In this document: one piece after another, positions 3,300 through 28,213 of the stretch
Layout: the number at the start of each line of letters is the position of its first letter
Position numbering within the stretch: position 1 is the first letter of the stretch
Origin: a virus
Strand: one strand, 5' to 3'
DNA: 39,368 nucleotides
IMG/VR virus record: IMGVR_UViG_3300040811_001156
Span: 1 to 39,368 of that record
Notes under the pieces: generated by a model
The model's database searches: none
Told to the model about the DNA's origin: nothing
The model's input: only the letters and a program-made list of their open reading frames with translations
Translations under genes and position numbers: made by a program

Positions 3300-3911
3300 A
3301 TGTCTAAACGAAGTCCAGAGCATTATGTAAACAATGCTCAATTCTCTGCGGCGGTTGTCGAATACGTGGAAAGGGCGAACAAAGCATCTGATGCAGGGAA
3401 ACCCATTCCTATAGTTACCAACTATATTGCAGAGTGTTTTCTTAAGATCGCAGAGGGACTCTCCCACAAATCCAACTTCGTGCGATATACGTTCCGTGAA
3501 GAAATGGTCATGGACGCAGTTGAGAACTGTCTCCGAGCAATCAAAAACTACAATCTTGAAGCAGCAACTCGAACAGGCAAACCTAATGCGTTTGCATACT
3601 TCACCCAAATCTCTTGGTATGCTTTCCTAAGACGCATTCAGAAAGAAAAGAAAGAACAAGACATCAAACTCAAGTTTATCAATGAGTCTGGTCTTGCTCA
3701 GTTTATGATCGACCCAGAAGAAGACCCAGAGTCAGCACGTGCTATTCAATCGTTCATCGATACTCTGCGCAAAAAGATCGACGACTCTAAAGATAAGGTA
3801 GTGGTAGAAGAAAAACCAATCCCCGAAACAAAGAAGAAAACAATCATTCGAAAGAGAAAGGACTCTCTTGATTCAGATCTTATGGATTTCTTTCTGGACG
3901 ACGAAGAATGA
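3300..3911 (+). CDS. 55: Late-transcription sigma factor gp55
   Basis: 203 residues (T4 gp55 185). gp55 replaces host sigma70 on RNA polymerase and recognises TATAAATA late promoters; it is activated by the sliding clamp. Matches to T4 gp55 include a YVNNAQF start, the IAEGLSHKSNF segment, the FREEMVMDAVENCLRAI sigma helix, the NAFAYFTQISWYAFLRRIQKEKKE region, and a C-terminal tail with DLMDFF that corresponds to the clamp-binding SLDFL tail of T4 gp55. The extra length is a charged linker (about 160-190) before the tail. TATAAATA sites in this window (15854, 16889) are consistent targets. Confidence 0.93.
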   Translation: MSKRSPEHYVNNAQFSAAVVEYVERANKASDAGKPIPIVTNYIAECFLKIAEGLSHKSNFVRYTFREEMVMDAVENCLRAIKNYNLEAATRTGKPNAFAYFTQISWYAFLRRIQKEKKEQDIKLKFINESGLAQFMIDPEEDPESARAIQSFIDTLRKKIDDSKDKVVVEEKPIPETKKKTIIRKRKDSLDSDLMDFFLDDEE

Positions 3912-4969: not shown

Positions 4970-5184
4970 TAGTCATTTATGGCGCAGAGTGGTGCACATA
5001 TTGTCTAGAAGCAAAAGAGTATTGTCGTGAAAAAGGTCTACATTATTCTTATGTCGATATTGAAAACATTGACCTAGACTTTATTGATGAAGAATTTGAA
5101 CCAGCAAAACCCATCCCCCAAATATTCGAAGAGGGCAGAAAGATCGGCGGGTTTGATGATCTGGTAAAACTATATGGATTATGA
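4966..5184 (+). CDS. Glutaredoxin (NrdC-like)
   Basis: 72 residues, a compact thioredoxin-fold protein. The active site is CTYC (Cys11 and Cys14), followed by a cis-Pro segment (KPIPQIF) and a GGFDDL glutathione-binding turn. Phage glutaredoxins such as T4 NrdC deliver electrons to ribonucleotide reductase; no reductase gene is present in this window, so the partner is either elsewhere in the phage or a host enzyme. It sits between gene 47 and the Mom-like gene with 4-base overlaps on both sides. Confidence 0.88.
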   Translation: MIVIYGAEWCTYCLEAKEYCREKGLHYSYVDIENIDLDFIDEEFEPAKPIPQIFEEGRKIGGFDDLVKLYGL

Positions 5185-5726
5185 AATCAGAATTCACTAT
5201 CCGTGAAATCTCACTCAATGACGCCCAGCAATTCATTGCAAAATTTCACTACCTCGCAGACATATACGGTAAGTTCCTTTTAGGAATCCGTCATAAGTTT
5301 TATGGGTTATATCGTGCTGATGAATTAGTCGGTGCTGTTCAATATACTGCTTATGACAACTGGGAGAGACAAGCGCTGGCAAACCACTTTGGTTTCATTG
5401 CAAATCAAAATTTAGGACACTGGGAGATTTGTAGGCTTGCCGTTGCACCAATAAAAGAGTATAATATAACGTCATGGTTTTTATCGAGAACCATGAAATT
5501 ATTATGCGAATCTGAAATAGTGGAAGGAATCATTACTGTTGCTGACGCCAGAATGCACAACGGTTGCATATATGCTGCTTGCAACTTTGATTATTATGGG
5601 TTGATGAAAGGGAGAGTGTCTGGTATGAAAGATTGCCACTTTCATGTTTTTCTGAAAACGTATAACGGCAACCAATGCGTTTGGCAGAAACAACCTTTTG
5701 AGAAGGATTATGAGATAACTTTATGA
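5181..5726 (+). CDS. Mom-like DNA modification protein (GNAT-fold)
   Basis: 181 residues. It resembles phage Mu Mom and its relatives, which have an acetyltransferase-type fold and convert adenine in DNA to a carbamoylmethyl derivative. Visible family features are FHY near residue 22, the strand pair GLYRADELVGAVQY, WEICRLAV (about 81-88), TSWFLSRTMKLL, and ADARMHNGCIYAACNFDYYG (about 121-140), in which the His, Tyr and Asn-Phe pattern recurs in Mom-like proteins. It lies immediately before gene 46 and the larger modification cluster. Substrate and product cannot be read from sequence; a different acyl transfer is possible. Confidence 0.68.
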   Translation: MKSEFTIREISLNDAQQFIAKFHYLADIYGKFLLGIRHKFYGLYRADELVGAVQYTAYDNWERQALANHFGFIANQNLGHWEICRLAVAPIKEYNITSWFLSRTMKLLCESEIVEGIITVADARMHNGCIYAACNFDYYGLMKGRVSGMKDCHFHVFLKTYNGNQCVWQKQPFEKDYEITL

Positions 5727-7441
5727 TAACATTTAAAAAGGTGAGATTCAAAAACTTCCTATCGACAGGAAATAATTTCACCGAAATTAATTTGAATGAG
5801 TACAAATCAACATTAATCGTAGGACAAAACGGTGCGGGTAAGTCGACTATGCTCGACGCGATATCATTTGGTCTATTTGGTAAACCGCATCGTAACATCA
5901 ACAAACCTCAGTTGGTGAATAGTATTAATCAGAAACAGGCAGTTGTTGAAGTTGAGTTTAGTGTGAACTCAAATCACTTCAAAGTTGTCCGTGGCGTCAA
6001 ACCAAACAAGTTTGAGATCTGGAAAGGCGACACGATGATCAATCAGTCGTCACATAGTAAAGAATATCAAAAGATCCTCGAACAAAACATCCTAAAACTG
6101 AACCACAAAACTTTTCACCAAGTAGTGGTGCTCGGTTCTTCATCTTTTATTCCTTTCATGCAACTTGCTTCTCACTCTCGTCGTGATGTGATCGAAGATT
6201 TACTGGATATTAATGTGTTCAGTAAAATGAATCAGATACTCAAAGAAAAATCTGCGACGTTAAAAGAGGATATACGTGAGAATGACTTTCAAATAGAAAT
6301 TAATTCCACCAAACTTGAGTCGCAGAAAAAGTACATCCGAGATATTTCTAAAATAAACGCAGATGTAAAGAAAGAAAAAGAAGATATTATTGAACGGTGG
6401 CAAAAAGAAAAGGACACCCATGTAAATGCTGTGGTGGATCTGAATGCTAAAGTTTTAGAAAACAGCAAAGGTCTTTCTGAAGGATTGACGGAAACAAAAA
6501 ATATTGTACTTGAATTACAATCTTCTGACACTGAAATAAAAACTAAAATAAAAGCGCTAGTAAAGGAGACAAAGTTTTATGAAAACAACGAGACTTGCCC
6601 AACCTGCGATCAGAACATCGACGAGGATCTCAAAAAAGGAAAGGTCAAGCAAGCGTCGATCACAGCAGCAGAGTTTCAATCACGTCTTGCTGAGATCGCA
6701 GAGAGTCAATCTAAAGCAACAACAGAACTTGCAGCATATGAAGCAAGACTAGCACAAAATAATGACTGGCAGAACGAAATAAAACAGCACAATGATTTTA
6801 TTAACAAGTGTGATGCTGAGATAAAACTTGCTGAAAACGATATAAACAATTTATCTAACGATAAGTCTGATCTGGCAAAAGCAAATGCTGATTTTGAAGA
6901 ATATAAAAATCTACTTGACAATTTGCGGGAACAGAAACTCAAGTTAAACGAACAGTTTCAATATAATCAGGTAGTTTTAGAACTGCTTAAAGATACTGGT
7001 ATCAAAACAAAGATCATTAAACAATATGTTCCTGTAATTAATAATTTTGTTAATCAGTATTTGCAGATCTTAGACTTTTTTGTTCACTTTGAACTTGATG
7101 AAACTTTTACAGAAACTATCAAATCAAGACATCGTGATGCATTTTCCTATGACTCGTTTAGCGAAGGTGAAAAGCAACGTATCGACTTATCATTGCTATT
7201 CACTTGGAGGCAGGTCGCTAAAATGAAGAATAGTGTTGCCACTAACTTGTTGATTTTAGACGAAACTTTTGACTCCTCACTAGATCAAGATGGCGTTGAG
7301 AATCTTATGAAGATACTATATACTCTCAGTGACGATACAAACGTTTTTGTCATTTCTCATAAGGGCGACATGCTCGAGGGTAAGTTTAACAACAAACTTG
7401 AGTTTGTCAAAGACAAGAATTTCTCGAAGATCAAAAAATGA
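5723..7441 (+). CDS. 46: gp46 recombination nuclease ATPase subunit (Rad50/SbcC family)
   Basis: 572 residues (T4 gp46 560). SMC-like ATPase partner of gp47. Walker A is GQNGAGKS (34-41). Long coiled coils flank a zinc hook CPTC near residue 290, the ABC signature SFSEGEKQRIDLSL lies near 477, and Walker B LLILDETFD near 510. Its start overlaps the Mom-like stop (ATGA). In T4, gene 46 is followed within a short distance by gene 45; here about 5 kb of modification genes separate them. Confidence 0.95.
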   Translation: MITFKKVRFKNFLSTGNNFTEINLNEYKSTLIVGQNGAGKSTMLDAISFGLFGKPHRNINKPQLVNSINQKQAVVEVEFSVNSNHFKVVRGVKPNKFEIWKGDTMINQSSHSKEYQKILEQNILKLNHKTFHQVVVLGSSSFIPFMQLASHSRRDVIEDLLDINVFSKMNQILKEKSATLKEDIRENDFQIEINSTKLESQKKYIRDISKINADVKKEKEDIIERWQKEKDTHVNAVVDLNAKVLENSKGLSEGLTETKNIVLELQSSDTEIKTKIKALVKETKFYENNETCPTCDQNIDEDLKKGKVKQASITAAEFQSRLAEIAESQSKATTELAAYEARLAQNNDWQNEIKQHNDFINKCDAEIKLAENDINNLSNDKSDLAKANADFEEYKNLLDNLREQKLKLNEQFQYNQVVLELLKDTGIKTKIIKQYVPVINNFVNQYLQILDFFVHFELDETFTETIKSRHRDAFSYDSFSEGEKQRIDLSLLFTWRQVAKMKNSVATNLLILDETFDSSLDQDGVENLMKILYTLSDDTNVFVISHKGDMLEGKFNNKLEFVKDKNFSKIKK

Positions 7442-7989
7442 AAGTAGAAGTCATGCGTGGTCTGTTTCCTGAACTTCAATGCAGATATATGGTTCAGAAA
7501 ATGGAACATGCAATTGCGACTAATCAGACAAAACGTGAGTTGCCAAATAACAAAAAGGGCATCAACGCATATTCAGTGCACGAGTTATTCCCAGAGGAAC
7601 AACTTGAAGTCCTGTATGATACAACTGAAATTGTCGGCAAAGTCCTGCTTCCAACATACAATTTTTCAAGAAAGTACGTTAAAGGGTCTATTCTCAGAAA
7701 GCACAAAGACCGTCCTGCCTGTGAGCATAGTCTGACAATAAACTTTGGTATTCATGAAAAACCTTGGACATTTTTTTGCGAAGTCGATGGAAAGACGATA
7801 GGCATTGACTTAAACCCAGGAGATGCGTTATACTATACGGGTCAAGATGTTGCTCATTGGAGAGAACCACTTGAAACTGATTACTGTTATCAATCTTTTT
7901 TTCACTATGTTGAAAAAGACGGTGAATGTAAAGATGAAGCATTTGAATCGTTGACGCGACAGGATAGAAAGGGCGTTTACAAAGGATAG
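7438..7989 (+). CDS. 2-oxoglutarate/Fe(II)-dependent oxygenase
   Basis: 183 residues. The C-terminal half has a double-stranded beta-helix pattern with the iron triad His89-x-Asp91 (RKHKD) and a distal His140 (VAHW), followed by Arg142, which may bind 2-oxoglutarate. NPGDALYYTGQDVAHWREP is typical of the last strands of phage 2OG oxygenases. It overlaps the end of gene 46 by 4 bases and opens the modification cluster. Such enzymes hydroxylate proteins, small molecules or nucleobases; a role in modifying DNA bases is inferred from position only. It is one of three 2OG oxygenases in the window. Confidence 0.75.
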   Translation: MKVEVMRGLFPELQCRYMVQKMEHAIATNQTKRELPNNKKGINAYSVHELFPEEQLEVLYDTTEIVGKVLLPTYNFSRKYVKGSILRKHKDRPACEHSLTINFGIHEKPWTFFCEVDGKTIGIDLNPGDALYYTGQDVAHWREPLETDYCYQSFFHYVEKDGECKDEAFESLTRQDRKGVYKG

Positions 7990-7992
7990 ATT

Positions 7993-8658
7993 ATGTGTGG
8001 TGTGATTGGCGTCAAAATAACTGACGTCAGTAATGTTGATGAACTTTTGATCAGGACATTATTTCAACAAACAATGATACGTGGCAAACACGCCACTGGT
8101 GTCACCTATGTTCGTGACGGTAAACTTCACACGATAAAGGAAGGAATTCCTGCTGACGAGTTTATCGAAAAGCATAACATATTTGATTGGGTTGATACTG
8201 ACAACTCAATTGCATTAATCGGTCATATCCGATATTCCACCTCAGATCTTCGATACAATCAACCATTTGCCAATGACGATTTGAGCATTGTTCACAATGG
8301 TGTTATCTCTCAGGAACCAGTCGAGACATGGCAGTTTAAAACTGAAACTGCTAACGATTCTGAAATGATATTGAGATCTTGGGAAAGTGGCATTCACCCA
8401 TTCAATTCATTTCCTATGTCTAGCATGGCAGTCTGCGCTTTGCGTAAAAGCAAGATGTTGATCGGCATGAGAAATCATGAACGACCGCTCTGGGTTTCAA
8501 AGATAGACAAGGGGATCGTATTCACTTCTACCAAAGATATCGCCTTGCGAAGTGGAATTGGCACTCCTCAAAAATGCGAAATGTTTACTGAATACATGTT
8601 TGATAAAACTTTGATAATGAGGCATCATGAAACACCTTCAGTTAACGACCTACAATAA
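7993..8658 (+). CDS. Class II glutamine amidotransferase domain protein
   Basis: 221 residues, an N-terminal-nucleophile glutamine amidotransferase domain without a synthetase partner domain. The catalytic Cys is residue 2 (MCGVIGV), exposed after Met removal. Other family features are RGKHATG, GHIRYST, the oxyanion motif IVHNGVIS, and an Asp preceding SEMILRSW. Such domains release ammonia from glutamine for a partner enzyme, as in GlmS or AsnB. Here only the glutaminase half is encoded, so ammonia would be passed to another protein. Its place among DNA modification genes suggests it feeds an amination or amidation of a base adduct (inference). RBS AAAGGA. Confidence 0.8.
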   Translation: MCGVIGVKITDVSNVDELLIRTLFQQTMIRGKHATGVTYVRDGKLHTIKEGIPADEFIEKHNIFDWVDTDNSIALIGHIRYSTSDLRYNQPFANDDLSIVHNGVISQEPVETWQFKTETANDSEMILRSWESGIHPFNSFPMSSMAVCALRKSKMLIGMRNHERPLWVSKIDKGIVFTSTKDIALRSGIGTPQKCEMFTEYMFDKTLIMRHHETPSVNDLQ

Positions 8659-9304
8659 AGATCAAGTCGAAAAACTCATCGAGAGACAACCAGAAGGAAA
8701 TAACACTAGGTTTCTCAAGTCTGCACACAACCTATGGTTTCGTTTTAAAAACTACGAGAAGCATCCTCCGTTCGTGCTCGTTGCTGATTCAGCACTAGAC
8801 GCAGGAGCAGATCCACTGGCACTAGTTTTTATTACTTTTAGTCAACGATCAAAGTATGCCAATCTATATGAGATCGTAACCCTTGAAGGCAAAGAAGGAA
8901 TGGGGTATGCTTCTAAAGTTTATTGGAGAGTTATGCAGAAGGCACATGAAAGGGGAATGCAGAGATTGAAGATGTCATGTACTCCCTCATCTGTAACTTG
9001 GCACAATCGCAATGGTACTATTTTCTGGGCAGTAGATCCGTCTGGATCCTTGCGTTGTGATGTTCCTATTTTTCCGAACCTACACGAGCAACTCACTTTT
9101 CGTGAGATGGCATTGAAAGATCATACCATTGCGTTACCACCAGAGAATGTAATTGAAAAACTAAAAAAAGAGGCACCAAATTCTCATGGGTTTGGTGTAA
9201 AGAAAATGCGACAAATTGAGGAGGCAATAAAAAGTGTTGGATCTCACTATATGCGTTGGGCACTCTACGAACCTACTTCTGCTTCCTTGGACGATTTCGT
9301 ATGA
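8627..9304 (+). CDS. GNAT-type acyltransferase with C-terminal clamp-binding-like tail
   Basis: 225 residues. A GNAT fold is suggested by YEIVTLEGKEGMGYASKVYW (about 81-100), where GKEGMGYA is a degenerate acyl-CoA pyrophosphate loop followed by the usual helix (VMQKAHERG), then RLKMSC and the NGTIFW turn. GNAT enzymes occur with amino acid:DNA transferases in known thymidine hypermodification loci. The last residues are SASLDDFV, the motif shared with other proteins here. The ATG overlaps the amidotransferase gene by 32 bases and is preceded by GAGG. The acyl acceptor is unknown; an amino group added to a DNA base is my inference. Confidence 0.65.
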   Translation: MKHLQLTTYNKDQVEKLIERQPEGNNTRFLKSAHNLWFRFKNYEKHPPFVLVADSALDAGADPLALVFITFSQRSKYANLYEIVTLEGKEGMGYASKVYWRVMQKAHERGMQRLKMSCTPSSVTWHNRNGTIFWAVDPSGSLRCDVPIFPNLHEQLTFREMALKDHTIALPPENVIEKLKKEAPNSHGFGVKKMRQIEEAIKSVGSHYMRWALYEPTSASLDDFV

Positions 9305-9522
9305 AAAAAATAATTACGACGATAAGCGGGAAGATATTCAACCGTTACAAATGGGAACCGACCGAAGAAGAACCAGTATATCCGATACAGGAATTTTACA
9401 CACCGAGGAGAGATGAACACGGACAATGGTGGTGGGGTTATCGCAAAGTGAGATTGATAAGATTACCTGAAGAAGAAAAGACTAAATATCTGGAGAAAAT
9501 GAATGCGACAAAACCACGTTGA
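9301..9522 (+). CDS. Small orphan protein in the modification cluster
   Basis: 73 residues, basic and aromatic, with an EHGQWWWGYRKVRL segment and a charged C-terminus. The ATG overlaps the stop of the GNAT gene (ATGA), which sets the start. The 3' end overlaps the amino acid:DNA transferase gene by 20 bases. I do not recognise the family. Its position, translationally coupled between two modification enzymes, makes a subunit or adaptor role plausible, but nothing in the sequence shows it. Confidence 0.6.
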   Translation: MKKIITTISGKIFNRYKWEPTEEEPVYPIQEFYTPRRDEHGQWWWGYRKVRLIRLPEEEKTKYLEKMNATKPR

Positions 9523-10480
9523 CACATTCATTGATTGGTTTGGTCGTAGTCTGGAAATTGAAGACTGCGATTCTGCTTTGTTTATGACCAATTATTTCTT
9601 CGATCGGTTTGAGTACAACTCCGAACAACGACTTTGGTTATCTTGGATCTATGGCACCACATATTATTGGCCCACTGCTTATGTCATTTGGAATGAGTTT
9701 CCTGATATGGAACTCGTCGGAGTGGAACGTCTTCGAGATTGGAATAATTCTAATTACTCTCGTCTTCGTTATCAAACTGATACTAAATGGAATAAAGGAC
9801 ACCTCGCGGATCAGTTCGTCTCCTACAAAGAATACGTTGGAGAGAGATCACAATGGTCTGCACTCACACAGGGATTTGTAGGTGACCCCGTTAAGGATTT
9901 CTATACGCTGTGGGAGACAGTAAATGCGTGGCACAAATTTGGTCGATACACTTCGTGGTTTTATATTCAAACGATCAAACAATGCTGTGACATTCCTGTT
10001 GATGTTGACAGTCTTTGGTTGCACGATTATAGCGGCTCTCGTTCGCATCGGAATGGACTATGTTATGCAGTGGGCAAACCTGATTGGATTGATCGCAAAT
10101 TAGATGAAGTCGAAATTGATTTTCTAGAAAATACTGCCAAAGAAATATTGGCAGAAACAAAACTCAGATATCCCCATGTTGCTGAAAAGGCAGATTTCTT
10201 TGCAATGGAAACCTGTCTCTGCAGTTTCAAAAAACTCTTCAGAACTCGAGAGGGTCGATATCTTGGTTACTATCTTGATCGACAAGCAGAGGAAATCAAA
10301 CGTGTTGAACAAGATGAGTGGGTTGGTATTGATTGGAAACCGATGTGGGATGCCAGAAACGAAACCCTACAGAAAAGATACTTGACAAATAAGATAGAAA
10401 AGAGTAAAATGTTTCTATTCTTAGAAACAGGCAAATTTGATCCAACTGAAAACAACTTGGGTCTTGAATCTTTCATGTGA
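9503..10480 (+). CDS. Amino acid:DNA transferase-like protein (thymine pyrophosphorylase clade)
   Basis: 325 residues. It matches my recollection of the family described computationally as alpha-glutamyl/putrescinyl thymine pyrophosphorylases. Members in phages such as ViI and M6 replace the phosphate of phosphorylated 5-hydroxymethyluracil in DNA with an amino acid. Signature stretches are FEYNSEQRLWLSWIYGTTYY (36-55), then PTAYVIWNEFPD, LRYQTDTKW, and RNGLCYAVGK (183-192). The C-terminus NNLGLESFM loosely resembles the LxDF tail of its neighbours. RBS GGAGA precedes the ATG. The kinase that would prepare its substrate is two genes downstream. The donated amino acid cannot be read from the sequence. 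Confidence 0.8.
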   Translation: MRQNHVDTFIDWFGRSLEIEDCDSALFMTNYFFDRFEYNSEQRLWLSWIYGTTYYWPTAYVIWNEFPDMELVGVERLRDWNNSNYSRLRYQTDTKWNKGHLADQFVSYKEYVGERSQWSALTQGFVGDPVKDFYTLWETVNAWHKFGRYTSWFYIQTIKQCCDIPVDVDSLWLHDYSGSRSHRNGLCYAVGKPDWIDRKLDEVEIDFLENTAKEILAETKLRYPHVAEKADFFAMETCLCSFKKLFRTREGRYLGYYLDRQAEEIKRVEQDEWVGIDWKPMWDARNETLQKRYLTNKIEKSKMFLFLETGKFDPTENNLGLESFM

Positions 10481-10487
10481 GGAATGA

Positions 10488-11885
10488 ATGGAAAGAGTTA
10501 GAATTGGAAAGTATGAATGGGACAAATACAAGGGTGATGAAGGGCAAGACGTCTACATTGCTAAGTTCCTCATTGAAGACGATGCTGTCCTCGGCACGTA
10601 TGTTGATGAAAACTCATATGATATTTTAGTTGAAGAGGACGCAGACTTTTACTTGTCATCTAATGACCTGATGGGCGAGACGCACGAGGAAGATCTGATC
10701 GCGTTTAAGTTTCGTAAAAATGTATTCACTGATGAAGAACAAAAGGGTGCTTATGAAGGTTTGTATGGTGCTGCTGTTGAGTCTAATAATCGTGGACTCG
10801 CTGCTGGACCGCGTGAAGAGACTCAGGGCAATCGTGACTGGGTGACTGGTTATCAACAAGATGTCTTGTCTTGGTATGAGCGAGGACAACCACCTAATGT
10901 TGATGGCACTGATCCCCTTCAAGAAATATTCGAACGTCATTTGTCAAACGAAGATGAAATCCGTGGTGGTGTTTGGTTGCGTACAAAGATCGAACCCGAG
11001 TTTGGCACCTACAAAGATTTCTTTCCTACACTTGAACGTCGACTCTCAGGTATGCCTATAGGTATGGCACAAGCAGAGGCACGAAGAGTTCGAACCACAA
11101 TGATTTCCGATACTTCATATGCTACTGCAATCTGGTCAGGTATCGCAGGATTTTATGGTCGATATCCTCGTATCCCCTACGGTCGACCAACAGCTTATAC
11201 CGATCATCATCGAGAAAAGTTTGAGAAGTGTTACCCCTTTGCTCGCAAACTTGAGCAGGAGTTTGCACGACTGCTCCCAGTGCGTCACGAACGTCAACTG
11301 AAATGTGCAGAGCAGATGGATAAGAAATTTCTTATCGGTGAGGATACAACCTTCACCACAATTACTGTTAATACAACGCAGGCAGATCGCAATGCACGTA
11401 TGGCATGTCATCGTGATGCTGGTTCGTTGAATCGTGGTTTTTCTAACCTGACTGTGATTACCGATCAAGGTAAGAGTTGGGAAGGTGGTTACTTGGTTGC
11501 CCCTGAAGTTCGTGCGGCGATTAACGTGCGTCCAGGTGATCTACTGCTCATTGATAACATGCGTGTGATTCATGGAAACACACCTATTACTGCGCCAAAT
11601 GGCGTAGACGAAAACTTCATGAGGATGTCTCTGGTTTTCTATTTCCGCGAAGATATGTTAAAACTTGGTTCGTGGGATTATGAACACCTGAGACGTGCTT
11701 ACGTCGACGAACGTCGTAAAAATGAAGAACACCCTCTTTGGAGACCATTCTGGAATGGTGTCAGTCCCGATATGTGGGAAGAAAAAGAGTGGTATGATTG
11801 GTTAAGTACACATGATGAAAGTCTGGTGCAAAAATATCATCCTGAAGCATATGATGTTCCTGCATCTTTGGAGGACTTCTTTTGA
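10488..11885 (+). CDS. TET/JBP-family 2OG-Fe(II) DNA base dioxygenase
   Basis: 465 residues. The core is TET/JBP-like: TTQADRNARMACHRDAG with the iron ligands His308 and Asp310, GFSNLTVIT, WEGGYLVAPE, RPGDLLLIDN, distal His362 in VIHGNTPI, and an Arg-rich last strand (MRMSLVFYFR, Arg379 or Arg387) for 2-oxoglutarate. TET enzymes oxidise 5-methylcytosine and JBP enzymes oxidise thymine in DNA; both kinds have phage members. About 280 residues precede the core. The protein ends in ASLEDFF. No cytosine C5-methylase is seen in the window, and the flanking transferase and kinase act on hydroxymethyluracil in known systems, so thymine is the likelier target. RBS GTGAGGA. Confidence 0.85.
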   Translation: MERVRIGKYEWDKYKGDEGQDVYIAKFLIEDDAVLGTYVDENSYDILVEEDADFYLSSNDLMGETHEEDLIAFKFRKNVFTDEEQKGAYEGLYGAAVESNNRGLAAGPREETQGNRDWVTGYQQDVLSWYERGQPPNVDGTDPLQEIFERHLSNEDEIRGGVWLRTKIEPEFGTYKDFFPTLERRLSGMPIGMAQAEARRVRTTMISDTSYATAIWSGIAGFYGRYPRIPYGRPTAYTDHHREKFEKCYPFARKLEQEFARLLPVRHERQLKCAEQMDKKFLIGEDTTFTTITVNTTQADRNARMACHRDAGSLNRGFSNLTVITDQGKSWEGGYLVAPEVRAAINVRPGDLLLIDNMRVIHGNTPITAPNGVDENFMRMSLVFYFREDMLKLGSWDYEHLRRAYVDERRKNEEHPLWRPFWNGVSPDMWEEKEWYDWLSTHDESLVQKYHPEAYDVPASLEDFF

Positions 11886-12448
11886 AAAAATTAATTGCAA
11901 TCATTGGCCCGCCAGGAACTGGAAAGACTACACTCGTTCGCAAACTGATGGAACGGTTCGAATGGGTGTATGATAAACCAATCGATCTTGTTGACTCATA
12001 TGTGTGTGGTAAGATAAGATTGATCGGACGATATGAAGAAGGCGAATTATTCGCTGGAACTGACAGGTTGAGTATGGCAGTACAACCTAAATTTCTCGAA
12101 TATATAAAAGACAACGATGACGAAGTTGTGATATTTGAGGGAGACAGACTCTCGTCTGTCACATTATTTGAAGAAGTTTCAAAACATAATTATGAATTGA
12201 AAATCTTCTCATTAAAAGTTTCAGATGAAACTCTGAAGAAACGATACGAACAACGAGGTTCTGATCAATCTGAGCAGTTTATCCGTGGTCGCAAGACCAA
12301 GGTTTCTAAAATTGAAGAACGATTCGGTGACAATATCCTCTTTGGATATGATGGTTGCGTTGATGAACTTCAAAATGAAACTGAAACTGAACTTGAAAAT
12401 AATGTCAACTTAATTCACAAAGAAATAACGCTTGACATTAATCATTGA
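11882..12448 (+). CDS. P-loop kinase, 5-hydroxymethyluracil-DNA kinase-like
   Basis: 188 residues. Walker A GPPGTGKT (9-16) opens the protein, GTDRLSMAVQP is at 59-69, and VVIFEGDRL at 83-90 is the acidic second motif. The GTDRLS and FEGDRL pair is what I associate with kinases that phosphorylate 5-hydroxymethyluracil in phage DNA, the step before amino acid transfer. The start is TTG (TTGA overlap with the dioxygenase stop), with a good RBS, GGAGG, upstream. The last 30 residues are acidic. A cytidine or nucleotide kinase role is a weaker alternative. The next gene, the sliding clamp, has its own promoter overlapping this 3' end. Confidence 0.78.
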   Translation: MKKLIAIIGPPGTGKTTLVRKLMERFEWVYDKPIDLVDSYVCGKIRLIGRYEEGELFAGTDRLSMAVQPKFLEYIKDNDDEVVIFEGDRLSSVTLFEEVSKHNYELKIFSLKVSDETLKKRYEQRGSDQSEQFIRGRKTKVSKIEERFGDNILFGYDGCVDELQNETETELENNVNLIHKEITLDINH

Positions 12449-12490: not shown

Positions 12491-13165
12491 ATGCAACTTA
12501 CTGAAGAAACCCTCAACGTGTTGAGAAACTTTTCGTCTATCCAGTCTAATCTGGTGGTCCAATCTGGATCTAAAATCAAGACCATGGCAGAAGCACGCAA
12601 TGTGATGAGTTCTGCCATCATCGCTCAAGAGTTTCCGCAAGATTTTGGTATCTACGACTTGAATGAATTTCTAAATGTTCTTTCACTGGTTGACGATCCA
12701 AAACTCGATTTCTCTCCCGAGTATGTCCGAGTCACTGACTCAACTGGTCGATCTGCTGTAAAGTATTTCTTTGCAGATCCGAGCATTTTGACGAGTCCTA
12801 GTAAAGACATCACTATGCCTGATTGCGAAGTGTCCTTTACTCTGGATGAGTCTACCCTATCCCGTGTTCGTAAAGCAGCATCTGTTTTGGGGCACGAGAA
12901 AATGACCATCGAAGCAAATGATGGTTCAATCAGACTGACTGTTATTGACAACAACGATCCCACGAGCAGTTCTTTCGTGATCGATGTTCCAGGAACTTAT
13001 CAGTCTGACAAGTTCTGCTTTGTTATGAACATCAGCAACATGAAGTTGATTTCTGGTGATTATGAAGTGGGCATTTCTAGTAAACTACTCTCTCAGTTTA
13101 CAAACAAGAACGTAGACGTGGTCTACTACATTGCACTCGAAAAATCCTCAACCTATGGAGAATAA
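12491..13165 (+). CDS. 45: gp45 sliding clamp
   Basis: 224 residues (T4 gp45 228). It forms the trimeric ring that holds gp43 on DNA and activates gp55-dependent late transcription. Matches to the family are the N-terminal LNVLRNFSSIQSNLVVQSG, FGIYDLNEFLNVLSL, the interdomain YVRVTDSTGRSAVKYFFADP region, the second-domain repeat with VSFTLDESTLSRVRKAASVL, and the C-terminal YYIALEKSS. The ATG has GGAG 7 bases upstream (12480-12483). It is the presumed docking partner for the C-terminal tails seen on gp43, gp55 and several modification enzymes. Confidence 0.95.
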   Translation: MQLTEETLNVLRNFSSIQSNLVVQSGSKIKTMAEARNVMSSAIIAQEFPQDFGIYDLNEFLNVLSLVDDPKLDFSPEYVRVTDSTGRSAVKYFFADPSILTSPSKDITMPDCEVSFTLDESTLSRVRKAASVLGHEKMTIEANDGSIRLTVIDNNDPTSSSFVIDVPGTYQSDKFCFVMNISNMKLISGDYEVGISSKLLSQFTNKNVDVVYYIALEKSSTYGE

Positions 13166-13819: not shown

Positions 13820-14750
13820 TGAATTTCTTTGGGTCGAGAAATATCGACCCAACACTGTTGATGAATGTATTTTGCCTGACGATCTGAAACAAACATTTCA
13901 AAAGATTGTCGACAAAGGTGAGATCCTAAACATGATTCTTTCTGGGACAGCAGGTCTTGGAAAAACATCGGTTGCCAAAGCAATCTGTAAAGAACTTGAT
14001 TCCGATTATATTCTTATCAATGGATCTGAAGAAGGCAACATTGATACCCTTCGAGGCAAGATTAAACAGTTTGCCTCCTCTGTGTCATTGTCAGGTGGCA
14101 AAAAAGTTGTCATCCTCGATGAGGCAGATTATCTCAATCCTCAATCTACGCAACCTGCTCTCCGTGGGTTCATCGAGGAGTTTAGTAACAACTGTCGATT
14201 TATTCTGACTTGTAACTTCAAAAATCGTATCATTGAACCACTGCATTCACGGTGCGGTGTATATGAATTCAATACGACCAAAAAAGACTTAGCAGGTCTT
14301 GCTGGTCAATTTATGAAGCGACTAAAGTTTATATTCAAGCAGGAGGAGATCGAGGCGAACGACGAGGACATCGCCAACCTTATCATGAAGTTCGCTCCAG
14401 ACTGGAGGCGTATCCTTAACGAGGCACAGAGACGGTCTCGAGAAGGTTCTCTACAACTAAACGCTGCTAGTTCGAGCAACGAACAGATATTCGATCAAAT
14501 CTTTTCCTATCTAAAGGACAAAGACTTTAAGAAAATGCGACAGTGGGTTGCTAACAACGTGGACATCGACACTTCTGCGATTTTCCGTGGTGTGTTCGAT
14601 GCCATGGACGATAAGGTGGAGTCGGGTAGTATTCCGCACCTAGTGCTCATTCTTGCTGACTATCAATACAAAGATGCGCATGTTGCCGATCATGAACTGA
14701 ACTTGGTCGCATGCTTCACGGAGATTATGGCAAATGTCAAATTCAAATAA
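13812..14750 (+). CDS. 44: gp44 clamp loader large subunit
   Basis: 312 residues (T4 gp44 319). AAA+ ATPase that with gp62 opens and loads the gp45 ring. It begins FLWVEKYRPNTVDECILP, the clamp-loader signature. Walker A is GTAGLGKT, Walker B is VVILDEADYL, and sensor and arginine-finger motifs are FILTCNF and HSRCG. The start is GTG with GGAG upstream. The 3' end overlaps an epimerase gene, which separates it from gp62, whereas in T4 genes 44 and 62 are adjacent. Confidence 0.95.
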   Translation: MSDEFLWVEKYRPNTVDECILPDDLKQTFQKIVDKGEILNMILSGTAGLGKTSVAKAICKELDSDYILINGSEEGNIDTLRGKIKQFASSVSLSGGKKVVILDEADYLNPQSTQPALRGFIEEFSNNCRFILTCNFKNRIIEPLHSRCGVYEFNTTKKDLAGLAGQFMKRLKFIFKQEEIEANDEDIANLIMKFAPDWRRILNEAQRRSREGSLQLNAASSSNEQIFDQIFSYLKDKDFKKMRQWVANNVDIDTSAIFRGVFDAMDDKVESGSIPHLVLILADYQYKDAHVADHELNLVACFTEIMANVKFK

Positions 14751-15462
14751 AAAGATCTTACTGACAGGCGGTGAAGGATTCATCGGTCGTAACTTCTACA
14801 AGTTATACAAAGACAAGTATGAGATTGTAGATGACCGAACAGACGTTCGTGAAATTGAAATCGACATGTTTGCTGGTTATGACATGGTGGTACACCTTGC
14901 TGCTTATGCTGGCGTTCGTCGGTCTCACGAAATTCCTGATGAATTTTGGGACAACAACGTAAACGGCACACAAAATATTTTTCGTGAGGCACAGACTGCG
15001 AGAGTACCAGTCATTTATGCTTCCTCTTCTTCGATCTATGAGTGGTGGTTGTCCCCTTATGCGACCACGAAAAAAGTCTGCGAGCAAATAGCAGGTCCAA
15101 AAACTCTTGGTTTGCGATTTCACACAGTATATGGTGCAGATTCTCGCCCTGACATGTTATATGATATGCTGCTGAACCGCAAAGTAAGTTATTTGACTAA
15201 TCATGTTCGTGACTGGACTCATGTAGAAGATATCTGCTCTGCTATCGACATCTGTATTGAGAAATTTGACTTGATTGATCTACCTGCTATCGACGTGGGC
15301 AACGGCAAACCTGTTCTTGTGACTGATATGGCAGAGAAGGTATGGCCAGGAAATAATCTTCCAGTGAAAGAAGTGAGTGGTGAGCGAGAATCTACTTGCG
15401 CCGATCCCAGTGTTTTAGTACAATTGGGTTGGCAACCAAAACATCACATACTGGAGGATTGA
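14734..15462 (+). CDS. NAD-dependent epimerase/dehydratase (extended SDR family)
   Basis: 242 residues. Rossmann fold with GGEGFIG near the N-terminus for NAD(P), VVHLAAYAG, SSSSIYE and a YATTKK active-site Tyr-x3-Lys. The family acts on nucleotide-activated sugars; at 242 residues this one is shorter than usual (about 300), with a reduced C-terminal sugar-binding part. It is inserted between genes 44 and 62 with an overlap to gp44 and a 1-base gap to gp62. With the UDP-sugar-dehydrogenase-like gene (21891) and two glycosyltransferases (28397, 29344) it may supply a sugar for DNA or envelope modification (inference). Confidence 0.85.
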   Translation: MSNSNKKILLTGGEGFIGRNFYKLYKDKYEIVDDRTDVREIEIDMFAGYDMVVHLAAYAGVRRSHEIPDEFWDNNVNGTQNIFREAQTARVPVIYASSSSIYEWWLSPYATTKKVCEQIAGPKTLGLRFHTVYGADSRPDMLYDMLLNRKVSYLTNHVRDWTHVEDICSAIDICIEKFDLIDLPAIDVGNGKPVLVTDMAEKVWPGNNLPVKEVSGERESTCADPSVLVQLGWQPKHHILED

Positions 15463-17864: not shown

Positions 17865-20384
17865 ATGAAATTTTATACGTCCGTTGCACGTATCGGTAAC
17901 AACATCGTCTACCGTGGTTATGAGAATGGTCTCAGAGTCAAAAAACGATATCCGTTCAAACCTACCATGTATGTCACTGCCAACCGAGATTCAGACTGGC
18001 AAACTCTGACAGGCGAGAAGGTAGTTCCCAAAAAGTTTGATACGATGAAAGAGGCAACTGAGTTCTCACATCAGTATGAAAACGTATCAAACATGAAAGT
18101 GTATGGTATCAACAACTTTGTCTCGCAGTTCGTCTACGAAGAGTTCCCAAACGACATACCCTTTGACCGAGATCTAGTGAACGTTGCGACGATCGATATC
18201 GAGGTCGCCTCTGACGATGGATTCCCTCATCCCGAGGAAGCAACTAAAGAAGTCATCTCGATCTGCTTGAAGAACAATCAGAGTGGCACCTACTTTGTGT
18301 GGGGTCTTGGCAATTACGATTCATCTATCAGTATTGTTGGTGAGGAAAATGTTCGATATGTTCACTGCGACGACGAGGTAGATTTACTTCAGAAGTTCCT
18401 GGGATTCTGGTCAGGCGATACCACCTGCCCTGATGTCATTACTGGTTGGAACAGTCGACTATTTGACCTTCCATATCTAATCAATCGAATGCAAAATATC
18501 CTCGACCCAGATGCCTACAAGAAAATGTCACCTTGGGGAATGGTTCGTGAGAAGAAGTTTGCATTAAATGGTCGACATCTACAGGCATATGAGATTGTCG
18601 GTATTGAGCAACTTGATTACTATGATTTGTTTCAGAAGTTTGGTGTCTACTCATATGGTGTGCAAGAATCGTACAAACTTGATCACGTTGCCAACGTAGT
18701 GCTCGATGAAAAGAAGTTATCGTACGAGGAGTTTGGTACACTACACTCACTCTACAAACACGACTATCAAAAATTCATCGATTATAACATCAAAGACGTA
18801 CAGTTGGTTGAACGCATCGAAGACAAGATGGGGTTGATCACGCTTGCTATGACGATGGGATACAAGGCAGGTTGCAACTATACTGACTCGTTTGGCACCA
18901 CATCACTCTGGGACACCTACATCTATCGATCCCTGACGAGCAGGAAGGTGGTTGTGCCACAAAAAGATGACAAACCAAAACAGGAACTTCCAGGTGGTTT
19001 TGTGAAGAGTCCCCATATTGGTCGTCACTCATGGGTGGTCTCCTTTGACTTGAATAGTCTATACCCTCACCTGATGTTGCAATATAATATGTCACCAGAA
19101 ACGGTTATGGTTGATAGAACTTCAGGTGTCAGTGTTCAAAACTGCCTAAACAAAACTCGACCAGAATCCAAACGTCCTGACTGCGCAATTGCTGCCAACG
19201 GTGCGCACTTCCGAAAAGATTTTAAAGGTGTGATTCCGACTATCATTGATGGATTGTATTCTGAACGAAAGGGAATCAAACGTCAGATGCTGAATGTACA
19301 GCAGAAGATCGAGGAAGAAGGATCTTCCTATGAGTATGAGAAGATGAACACCACTCTTGATACTCAGCAGATGGCAATTAAGATTATGATGAACTCACTT
19401 TATGGTGCAATCGGCAATAGATGGTTCCGATATTATGATCATCGTATCGCCGAAGCAATTACCACGAGTGGTCAGTTATCAATCTTGTGGGCAGAAAAAA
19501 CAGTCAATGGGTTCATGAACAAGATCCTTGAAACTGATGATGTTGATTATGTGATCGCGATTGATACTGATTCAGTGTATATCAACTTTGGTCCGATGGT
19601 TGAGAAGTTTGGTCTTGAGAAGAAAGGCAAACGAGATGCAGTTGCGAAACTTGATCAAATTGCCCGTGATCAGTTTGAACCATTACTTGAAAAGGCATAC
19701 AAAGATCTATCAAAGTACATGAATGCATTTGAGAATCGTATGGTCATGGGTCGTGAAGCAATCGCCGATGCTGGTATCTGGACTGCCAAGAAACGATATA
19801 TCCTGAACGTGCATAACAACGAAGGTGTGCAATATAAAAAACCGAAGTTGAAGATTATGGGTATCGAGGCAGTGAAGTCCTCAACTCCAAACTCTTGCAG
19901 AACTGCGCTGAAAGAATTGTTCAAAGTGATTATTTCGAGTGATGAAAAAGACGTACAACAATCCATTCGTGTGTTCAAGGAATACTTCAAGTCTCTCCCA
20001 CCGCACGAGGTTGCATTTCCTCGCGGAGTCAAGAACGTGAATGGATGGAAAGATGACAAACTAGTCTATCAGAAAGGAACGCCGATCCATGTGCGTGGGT
20101 CTCTGCTGTTCAATAAACTCATAGTTGATAAATCACTGGGAAAAAGGTATAATGTTATCAACGATGGAGACAAGATCAAGTTTACTTATTTGAAAGTGCC
20201 AAACCCAATATCTGAAAACATCATTGCTTTCGCAGATTATCTACCAGAGGAGTTTGGGTTGCACGATTATGTTGATTATGAAACGCAGTTTGACAAAGCA
20301 TTCCTCAAGGTGGTTGAACCAGTCCTTGAGGCAATTGGTTGGACTGCCGAACCACGGGCGACACTAGATGAATTCTTTGGATAA
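17865..20384 (+). CDS. 43: gp43 DNA polymerase (family B)
   Basis: 839 residues (T4 gp43 898). The proofreading exonuclease is present (TIDIEVAS near residue 110, DVITGWNSRLFDLPYL for ExoII and a DYNIKDVQLVERI ExoIII region). Polymerase motif A is SFDLNSLYPHLM near 395, motif B is KIMMNSLYGAIGN, and motif C is IDTDSVYI near 567. The C-terminus ATLDEFFG is the expected clamp-binding peptide, comparable to the tail by which RB69 gp43 binds its clamp. It has a consensus early promoter. The next gene starts inside its 3' end. Confidence 0.96.
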   Translation: MKFYTSVARIGNNIVYRGYENGLRVKKRYPFKPTMYVTANRDSDWQTLTGEKVVPKKFDTMKEATEFSHQYENVSNMKVYGINNFVSQFVYEEFPNDIPFDRDLVNVATIDIEVASDDGFPHPEEATKEVISICLKNNQSGTYFVWGLGNYDSSISIVGEENVRYVHCDDEVDLLQKFLGFWSGDTTCPDVITGWNSRLFDLPYLINRMQNILDPDAYKKMSPWGMVREKKFALNGRHLQAYEIVGIEQLDYYDLFQKFGVYSYGVQESYKLDHVANVVLDEKKLSYEEFGTLHSLYKHDYQKFIDYNIKDVQLVERIEDKMGLITLAMTMGYKAGCNYTDSFGTTSLWDTYIYRSLTSRKVVVPQKDDKPKQELPGGFVKSPHIGRHSWVVSFDLNSLYPHLMLQYNMSPETVMVDRTSGVSVQNCLNKTRPESKRPDCAIAANGAHFRKDFKGVIPTIIDGLYSERKGIKRQMLNVQQKIEEEGSSYEYEKMNTTLDTQQMAIKIMMNSLYGAIGNRWFRYYDHRIAEAITTSGQLSILWAEKTVNGFMNKILETDDVDYVIAIDTDSVYINFGPMVEKFGLEKKGKRDAVAKLDQIARDQFEPLLEKAYKDLSKYMNAFENRMVMGREAIADAGIWTAKKRYILNVHNNEGVQYKKPKLKIMGIEAVKSSTPNSCRTALKELFKVIISSDEKDVQQSIRVFKEYFKSLPPHEVAFPRGVKNVNGWKDDKLVYQKGTPIHVRGSLLFNKLIVDKSLGKRYNVINDGDKIKFTYLKVPNPISENIIAFADYLPEEFGLHDYVDYETQFDKAFLKVVEPVLEAIGWTAEPRATLDEFFG

Positions 20385-27082: not shown

Positions 27083-27338
27083 GATCTTTGATTTTGGATT
27101 CACCGCAGTAGACGAGCAAGAACTTGAAGCAGTACAAACCACAGTAAAAGAACTTGATACTGCGAGTGCTACTGCTGAAGAGGCACGTGTACGACTTGAT
27201 AAGTTGTACAATGCCATTCAACCTTTGTTGAATAACCTGAAGGCAAATCCAGAGAAGGATTACATTTACTGGCCAGAACGACTGTCGAAAGTGGAGCAGT
27301 TTTCGGATCTACTCGATTCGATTTATGGTGGCAAGTGA
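27075..27338 (+). CDS. Coiled-coil conserved hypothetical protein
   Basis: 87 residues, starting MSEIFDFGFTAVDEQELEAV, a stretch that looks conserved in marine T4-like phages. Residues 20-60 are heptad-like (Leu, Ala, Val), then KDYIYWPERLSKVEQF. The start at 27075 has TTGGAG upstream and overlaps the previous stop. The 3' end overlaps the Dam methylase GTG (GTGA). Function unknown. Confidence 0.7.
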   Translation: MSEIFDFGFTAVDEQELEAVQTTVKELDTASATAEEARVRLDKLYNAIQPLLNNLKANPEKDYIYWPERLSKVEQFSDLLDSIYGGK

Positions 27339-28213
27339 AAGATCTAAAAACACCACTGCGATATCCTGGCGGTAAATCTCGTGCTGTTAAGTTTCTCTTC
27401 TCGCAAGAGAACATGCCAGCACGTGAGATAAAAGAGTATCGAGAATGTTTCCTCGGAGGTGGGAGTTGTGCCATCTATTTCTCGATGGCAAATCCCAGCA
27501 TTCCTGTTTGGGTCAACGACAAGTATTACAATCTCTTTTGTTTCTGGACCAGTCTACAAAAAGACGGAAAGAAACTTGCCGAAAAATTGCATCAAGTAAA
27601 AACCGAACTGGACTCAGCAGAGGATTCACTCCAAGCACATCTTGATTACTACCACGTAATGCGTGAAGGACTGAACACTGCTGAAGATCCATTTGAGATC
27701 GCATGGCAGTTCTACGTTATGAATCGTTGTTCGTTCTCTGGTCTCGGTGAGACAACTGGATCGTTTAGCAAAGACGCTTGTCGTGATCTGTTCACATATA
27801 ACCTGATCGCAAAGTTGCCAAAGTTTGCTCATGTGACACGCAATTGGAGAATAACCAACGAGGACTACTCTGCACTGCTGGAGGGGAGCGAGGACACATT
27901 TATTTTTGCTGACCCACCATATGACATTAAATCATTTATCTACGGTAATAACGGTGATATGCACGACTCGTTTTGCCATAAAAGATTTCACGATCAGATA
28001 GACGAGAGTGAAAGTATGGTAATGATCACCTATAACTCTAACGAAACTTTAAAGGAAGCATACACTGGGTGGAATCAGTTGGAGTGGGATCTCACTTACA
28101 CGATGCATTCCGGCGAGAAATATCTTGCCGACCAACACAACAGAAAAGAGTTACTATTGAGAAACTATGAATGCGCATCAAAGAACACATTAGAAGATTT
28201 CTTTGATATATAA
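27335..28213 (+). CDS. dam: Dam-type DNA adenine-N6 methyltransferase
   Basis: 292 residues, D12 class. It opens TPLRYPGGKSRAVKFL (SAM-binding element), then ECFLGGGS (37-44) and the catalytic DPPY in FADPPYD near 192, and ends with a strand carrying HNRKELLLRNY. T4 Dam methylates GATC; the same specificity is likely but not shown here. GATC is frequent by eye and not avoided in the window. The C-terminus is NTLEDFFDI, the same tail type as in gp43 and the TET/JBP enzyme. Start GTG. Confidence 0.9.
   Translation: MKDLKTPLRYPGGKSRAVKFLFSQENMPAREIKEYRECFLGGGSCAIYFSMANPSIPVWVNDKYYNLFCFWTSLQKDGKKLAEKLHQVKTELDSAEDSLQAHLDYYHVMREGLNTAEDPFEIAWQFYVMNRCSFSGLGETTGSFSKDACRDLFTYNLIAKLPKFAHVTRNWRITNEDYSALLEGSEDTFIFADPPYDIKSFIYGNNGDMHDSFCHKRFHDQIDESESMVMITYNSNETLKEAYTGWNQLEWDLTYTMHSGEKYLADQHNRKELLLRNYECASKNTLEDFFDI

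Follow-up and report, generated by a model that had tools for sequence, protein, structure and literature searches.

A probable TET-initiated DNA hypermodification module with exchangeable tailoring genes in T4-like phages

The stretch of DNA analysed here (the window) is a complete IMG/VR virus record of 39,368 bases, IMGVR_UViG_3300040811_001156, from a T4-like phage that carries homologues of gp55, gp47, gp46, gp45, gp44, gp62 and gp43 in that order. The interval between gp46, a recombination endonuclease subunit, and gp45, the sliding clamp, holds genes for a 2-oxoglutarate (2OG)-Fe(II) oxygenase, a glutamine amidotransferase (GAT, gene gat), a GNAT acyltransferase, an 88-aa open reading frame (ORF), an amino acid:DNA transferase (AADT, gene aadt), a TET/JBP dioxygenase and a P-loop kinase. 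Immediately upstream of gp46 is a gene for a Mom-like protein. The initial annotation had read these genes as one pathway of DNA base hypermodification. We find that the actual unit is a GAT–GNAT–AADT–TET–kinase module, smaller and better defined than that pathway, and we consider it likely that it serves a phage DNA-base hypermodification started by TET on thymine, continued by the kinase and AADT, completed by tailoring enzymes that are exchanged as cassettes, and linked to the clamp by C-terminal tails. What can be read directly from the sequences is family membership, the conservation of catalytic residues, linkage, cassette swapping and the enrichment of the tails; the swapping and the tails had escaped the initial annotation.

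The gp46–gp45 locus and its five-gene module

The features of the locus, together with the C-terminal tails considered below, are as follows.

3873..3908, + strand: C-terminal segment SDLMDFFLDDEE of the late sigma factor gp55 (3300-3911), a region known to bind the clamp in T4
5181..5726, + strand: Mom-like adenine-modification enzyme (PF25680, E 4e-16), judged to be a neighbour outside the module
5723..7441, + strand: gene 46 recombination endonuclease subunit (AAA_23/SMC_N), core T4-type gene and upstream landmark, the same neighbour at many loci
7438..7989, + strand: small 2OG-Fe(II) oxygenase, 183 aa (phrog_2954, E 1e-40), judged to lie outside the module
7993..8658, + strand: gat, class-II (Ntn) glutamine amidotransferase domain protein (GATase_6, E 1e-8; PurF structures match)
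8627..9304, + strand: GNAT acyltransferase, type-A tailoring enzyme (PF00583, E 4e-4; GNAT-fold model)
9284..9301, + strand: C-terminal tail SLDDFV of GNAT, clamp-binding-like, at the low-pLDDT end of the model
9256..9522, + strand: 88-aa open reading frame, gene status unsure
9503..10480, + strand: AADT (PF18724, E 6e-22)
10460..10477, + strand: C-terminal tail GLESFM of AADT, clamp-binding-like by its pattern
10488..11885, + strand: TET/JBP dioxygenase (PF12851, E 2e-15), proposed entry step
11865..11882, + strand: C-terminal tail SLEDFF of TET, clamp-binding-like by its pattern
11882..12448, + strand: P-loop nucleotide kinase, Ploopntkinase3 (PF18751, E 1e-10), proposed hydroxymethyl-base kinase
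12491..13165, + strand: gene 45 sliding clamp (phmmer against RB69/T4 clamp structures, E 4e-22), to which the tails are proposed to dock
20361..20381, + strand: tail TLDEFFG of the DNA polymerase gp43 (17865-20384), taken as reference for clamp-binding tails (T4 gp43 ends in SLDFLFG)
28187..28210, + strand: tail TLEDFFDI of a D12-class N6-adenine methylase (27335-28213; PF02086, E 4e-23)

The ORFs are open at these coordinates, with overlaps of 4, 4, 4, 32, 49, 20 and 4 nt and gaps of 3 and 7 nt. The coupled starts proposed in the initial annotation are thus borne out, as starts overlap the preceding genes or follow them closely, and the clamp with which it ended the gene run is indeed found there. 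Searches with Pfam and PHROG profiles likewise returned a Mom protein, a class-II glutaminase, GNAT, AADT, TET/JBP and a P-loop kinase where that annotation had placed them.

Related loci, about 90 in all, were collected from IMG/VR using AADT, TET, GNAT and GAT queries. Linkage was then counted with family profiles in the AADT loci that had at least 5 kb of upstream and at least 3.5 kb of downstream sequence; there were 27 of these, 17 of them distinct at 95% AADT identity, and such related sequences are not independent counts. TET, the kinase and GAT were present at all 27 loci. The position of the module varies, being the gp46–gp45 interval in some phages and next to the polymerase or other replication genes elsewhere, and the five-gene core of GAT, GNAT, AADT, TET and kinase is found again in dozens of further contigs and at several genomic positions. 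We conclude that, because the core recurs across contigs and positions, the gene set is not a chance assembly; the enzymes at the heart of the pathway as first proposed (TET/JBP, kinase, AADT, acyltransferase and glutaminase) are always found together.

All five module enzymes look active from their sequences, as their catalytic residues or motifs are conserved. The gat product begins M-C-G-V, and Cys2 and the motifs HxRYST, HNG and NDSE are invariant among 16 relatives (R80, N102-G103, D122); its C-terminus is a near-invariant D-L-Q at type-A and type-B loci (defined below) alike. GNAT scores just above the PF00583 cut-off, its AlphaFold model (pLDDT 93) finds GNAT folds in the PDB, and it retains a conserved ExxGxGYA-like acyl-CoA loop. 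AADT scores 78.9 bits against PF18724 (cut-off 26.2), and the module AADTs are homologous to the ViI/M6-type AADTs over their full length (hhalign probability 100%, E 1e-46, 310 columns). The AADT profile also matched a PDB 'glycinyltransferase', but this was discarded as evidence because the query profile contained the M6 protein; a profile built from module AADTs only matched no PDB chain. TET scores 56.6 bits against PF12851 (cut-off 34.9), its iron ligands H308, D310 and H362 (HxD...H) and the 2OG-binding R379 are invariant in 18 sequences, and the family profile matches human TET2 structures (E 1.4e-4). In the kinase, Walker A and an EGDR motif are invariant in 15 sequences. This protein had been described as similar to 5-hydroxymethyldeoxyuridine (5-hmdU) DNA kinases: it is a P-loop kinase, as stated, but its best family is PF18751, outside the HMUDK families PF18747 and PF18748, which are those matched by the 5-hmdU kinase of M6 and by the ViI-like phage kinases. 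HMUDK membership was rejected, as the likeness to HMUDK is confined to the P-loop.

Clamp-binding-like tails and the probable target base

In the window, TET, AADT, GNAT, the adenine methylase, the polymerase and gp55 carry the endings listed above. We searched the C-terminal ends of the non-redundant proteins of the fetched loci for L[DE]xF[FLMVI] and found it in 8/8 polymerases, 42/49 TETs, 30/53 AADTs and 22/31 GNATs. It was absent from the kinase (0/48), GAT (0/44), gp46 (0/25), gp45 (0/21), gp47 (0/20), the amidoligase described below (0/19) and gp44 (0/14). Among unassigned ORFs 10/345 had it; one of these is a TET-associated glycosyltransferase (TAGT), and some resemble DNA-acting proteins, HNH types among them. 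The enrichment gives hypergeometric P values of 3e-5 in a genome of 197 ORFs and 2e-4 in the window, figures that take no account of kinship.

These tails could be coincidental or a local structural feature with no role as a clamp-binding signal, a reading that we consider doubtful while giving it real weight: the motif is short, the families are related by descent and some members lack the tail, among them the M6 AADT and the TETs of HTVC112P, P12024L and S-CBWM1. However, the tail is shared by unrelated families and by the polymerase of the same phages, it arises in shuffled C-termini at only 5e-4 per protein, and throughout two nearly complete relatives it is restricted to 2/222 ORFs (polymerase and TET) and 5/197 ORFs (polymerase, TET, AADT, GNAT and one 96-aa ORF). 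T4 gp43 and gp55 end alike, in SLDFLFG and SLDFLYEAND respectively, and either tail can stand in for the other in binding gp45 (PMC2988020). On this pattern of endings, the tails probably hold TET, AADT and GNAT on the sliding clamp.

Comparable endings were seen outside the module. A TAGT adjoining TET at one locus (L009:2081-2863) ends in NNLEAFF. In Nonlabens phage P12024L (L108:3685-5080) a TET-linked glycosyltransferase ends in NQLEIF and an N6/N4 methylase in QQTLF, which resemble bacterial beta-clamp-binding motifs; tethering of this kind might also occur in phages that rely on the clamp of their host. The AADT and 5-hmdU-kinase proteins of three ViI-like phages (L098, L100 and L104) end in NDLMGFFQ, NNLLSLFGR, NLMSLLKR, NVFDLF and SVLDLF; these endings of the classic enzymes are possibly clamp-binding too.

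The base on which TET acts was approached through gene content, using 13 module contigs of 56-162 kb that are possibly incomplete. A thymidylate synthase (TS)-family dUMP or dCMP hydroxymethylase was found in 0/13 of these contigs and not in the 39-kb window, and a PF00145 C5-methylase in 0/13 contigs and 0/17 records overall. ThyX, which makes ordinary dTMP, was present in 10/13. The classic AADT phages ViI, M6, Bue1, Cygsa01 and Vibrio D506 have the opposite content, with a divergent TS-family gene in 5/5 and TET in 0/5. The cultured Caulobacter phage Cr30 encodes TET, AADT, a kinase homologue and an ordinary-looking thymidylate synthase, which scores 373 bits on the TS-family profile as against 49-66 bits for the classic AADT phages. 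Because both hydroxymethylase and C5-methylase are missing, ThyX is present and the classic phages show the reverse, the simplest reading of the gene content is that TET takes the place of the hydroxymethylase and acts on thymine within DNA. This supports the suggestion of the initial annotation that a TET/JBP enzyme makes the hydroxymethyl base in the polymer.

TET might instead oxidise 5-methylcytosine provided by a host or unrecognised methylase, with the kinase, AADT and tailoring enzymes acting on 5-hydroxymethylcytosine. Membership of the TET family does not fix the base, and to our knowledge the phage TETs characterised so far act on 5-methylcytosine in phages that encode a C5-methylase. 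We nevertheless regard the cytosine route as unlikely, since neither a PF00145 C5-methylase nor a dCMP hydroxymethylase is found in module contigs of up to 162 kb, the AADTs of known chemistry use thymidine derivatives and ThyX is kept in most of the contigs.

Two phages, DLP6 (KU682439) and C48C1 (OQ984149), carry TET without AADT, C5-methylase or a TS-family gene. In DLP6, TET is paired with a TAGT, and C48C1 has a UDP-galactopyranose mutase nearby; a base-J-like glycosylated 5-hydroxymethyluracil is a possible product in these phages.

Exchangeable tailoring genes and the neighbours of the module

The interval between gat and aadt holds exactly one of two gene sets in the 27 flanked loci. 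Type A, found in the window and in 14/27 loci, is a single GNAT. Type B, found in 13/27 loci, combines a GNAT of another kind with a 290-aa protein and, in most cases, a ParB-like protein; the GNATs of the two types are at best distantly related (23% identity over 144 aa, E 4e-6). Types A and B interleave on the AADT tree, whose well-supported branches force at least eight changes between them. The exchange can be seen most directly in the sister loci L043 (type B) and L048 (type A), which share 86-88% identity across gp46, gat, aadt and tet and yet are outright different between the gat stop codon and the aadt start.

The 290-aa protein matches Amidoligase_2 (PF12224) weakly, at 20.4 bits (cut-off 22), and in 7/16 members. 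The solved folds nearest to its model (pLDDT 90) are glutamine synthetase (GS), gamma-glutamylcysteine synthetase (GCS), the bifunctional glutathione synthetase, PafA and GmaS, with a best fold-search E of 0.01; the profile of the family matched nothing among PDB sequences. Because GS and GCS folds head the structure matches, an amide ligase with a GS fold is the likeliest identity of the modelled protein, which was found in 6/6 type-B contigs and in 0/8 type-A records, the window included. A glutaminase-fed amide ligase would be a natural next step in the pathway, because AADT would leave a carboxylate on the base.

At several type-B loci, including L006-L008, L017 and L074, the protein of 430-440 aa between the type-B GNAT and AADT has a ParB-like centre, and it matched nothing above cut-off in Pfam. 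Zinc-ribbon-like proteins of about 100-117 aa with a clamp-like tail occur at varied sites in or beside the module at L021, L024, L047 and L050.

It is conceivable, though in our view distinctly improbable, that only TET, the kinase and AADT modify DNA, and that the glutaminase, amidoligase and GNAT belong to an adjoining surface or metabolite pathway. GATase and amidoligase pairs are described in phages without known TET or AADT, and a change to the cell wall has been suggested for them (PMC10580990, citing Iyer 2009). Two observations argue against such a split: GAT accompanies the other enzymes at every flanked locus, the linkage being kept wherever the module moves, and GNAT shares the clamp-type tail of TET and the polymerase, which a surface enzyme would not need.

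The genes around the module have a different distribution. The window Mom scores 59.6 bits against PF25680 (cut-off 27.1), was found in 0/13 large module contigs, and has its sole other copy in a fragment near-identical to the window phage (L012). The 2OG oxygenase has no match in Pfam; its phrog_2954 homologues occur in 154 phage records, nearly all cyanophages, and at only 6 fetched loci. The name 'ferrochelatase' given to phrog_2954 looks misapplied, and one homologue is annotated as a 2OG-Fe(II) oxygenase. Because of this distribution in relatives, we judge both genes to be neighbours outside the pathway in which the initial annotation had placed them. That both carry out further steps on one adduct, as that annotation had it, is very improbable even though the genes are adjacent and translationally coupled and Mom is a DNA-modifying family, because Mom is missing from every module contig and the oxygenase is a common cyanophage gene. 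The small orphan that it also listed, the 88-aa ORF, is an orphan in that it is seen solely in the window phage, and the nearest relative (L011) lacks it; its status as a gene is unsure.

Elsewhere in the window, a nucleotide-sugar epimerase (PF01370) lies in the gp44/gp62 interval at 14734-15462. The window contains no tRNAs, promoter and terminator scans gave numbers about equal to those of shuffles, and the 246 GATC sites (222 expected) are not striking. A defence-system reading was rejected, as PADLOC returned P-loop matches only.

The proposed pathway and known systems

In the scheme that we propose, TET would act on thymine that has already been built into phage DNA and hydroxylate its methyl group to give 5-hydroxymethyluracil, the Ploopntkinase3 protein would phosphorylate the hydroxymethyl group, and AADT would swap the phosphate for an amino acid. 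The adduct would then expose a free carboxylate, as well as a secondary amine if the linkage is through nitrogen. In type A, as in the window, GNAT would then acylate the adduct, the glutaminase helping in an unspecified way. In type B, the GS-fold amidoligase, fed by the glutaminase, would make an amide at the carboxylate, alongside a second GNAT. If the amino acid is glycine, the calculated [M+H]+ is close to 316.11 for the glycine adduct of hmdU, 315.13 for the corresponding carboxamide of type B and 358.12 for the N-acetylated adduct of type A. TET, AADT and GNAT would sit on the sliding clamp through their tails, and modification would therefore follow replication. The picture is one of AADT-based thymidine hypermodification with TET entry, exchangeable cassettes and probable clamp tethering, in which we infer each chemical step, thymine as the base and binding to the clamp.

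Several points weigh against this scheme. The kinase shows only P-loop similarity to HMUDK in profile-profile comparison, with 16% probability. The presence of TET alone leaves the choice between thymine and cytosine unsettled; 5-methylcytosine could be supplied by host C5-methylases or by an unrecognised methylase, and the contigs are perhaps incomplete. The strict tail is missing from the Cr30 proteins and from the majority of type-B GNATs, and it is present in just 30/53 AADTs. The weakest part is the acceptor for glutaminase ammonia in type A: none of the eight type-A records has an amidoligase of the type-B family that would account for the glutaminase. Incorporation of ammonia from the glutaminase, as first suggested, is plausible for type B with its amidoligase and harder to account for in type A, the type of the window.

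A more far-reaching line, which we put forward tentatively as something short of an even prospect, is that TET, AADT and GNAT, together with the Dam-type methylase, dock on gp45 and turn thymine into an amino-acid adduct behind the fork, the acyl and amide cassettes being swapped between gat and aadt under pressure from host defences.

If the scheme is correct, a phage enzyme would oxidise thymine in DNA as the kinetoplastid JBP does, and an amino acid would then be added; we know of no biochemical description of a route from thymine oxidation in DNA to an amino-acid adduct. Iyer et al. are said to have proposed in 2013 that TET/JBP products are starting points for complex phage base modifications. 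Swappable cassettes would show that phages can alter their DNA chemistry without rebuilding the pathway. Polymerase-like tails would provide a general rule by which hypermodification keeps pace with replication, and the tail would be a sequence mark for further DNA-acting enzymes in T4-like phages. With its TET, AADT and kinase homologue, the cultured phage Cr30 makes the core idea testable now.

The partial literature that we covered on amidoligases and phage DNA modification contains no report of this gene set, and the nearest known systems each share a part of it. Phages ViI (Salmonella) and M6 (Pseudomonas) have an AADT of the same Pfam family and a P-loop DNA kinase step, and in ViI-like phages the hypermodification genes lie close to T4-type replication genes. 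However, the hydroxymethyl base is believed to arise there as a nucleotide, by the TS-family enzyme and without TET, their kinases belong to PF18747/PF18748 with PF18723 rather than to PF18751, and the M6 cluster has pyridoxal phosphate (PLP) and radical S-adenosylmethionine (SAM) proteins where the module has GAT and GNAT. The TET/TAGT systems of DLP6, P12024L and S-CBWM1 have a homologous TET, that of DLP6 being 50% identical, but use a sugar transferase in place of the kinase and AADT; TAGT was found in 0/14 of the module contigs and the window taken together.

In Synechococcus phage S-B43, CmoY converts 5-carboxymethylcytosine to an amide, and proteins with a ParB domain are found alongside (PMC12783734). 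The CmoA/CmoX/CmoY system resembles our scheme in that a base carboxylate is converted to an amide by an ATP-dependent ligase, one class of which has a glutamine-hydrolysing domain; it differs in that the handle is placed on cytosine through carboxy-SAM and a C5-methylase relative, the ligase is of the asparagine-synthetase type rather than GS-fold, and TET, kinase and AADT are not described there (PMC12783734). Finally, the T4 alpha-glucosyltransferase is a DNA-modifying enzyme that binds the sliding clamp gp45 (PMC13216743, confirming Sommer 2004). It is a single enzyme, ending in QFDIITK without a gp43-like tail, whereas in the module several enzymes carry such tails.

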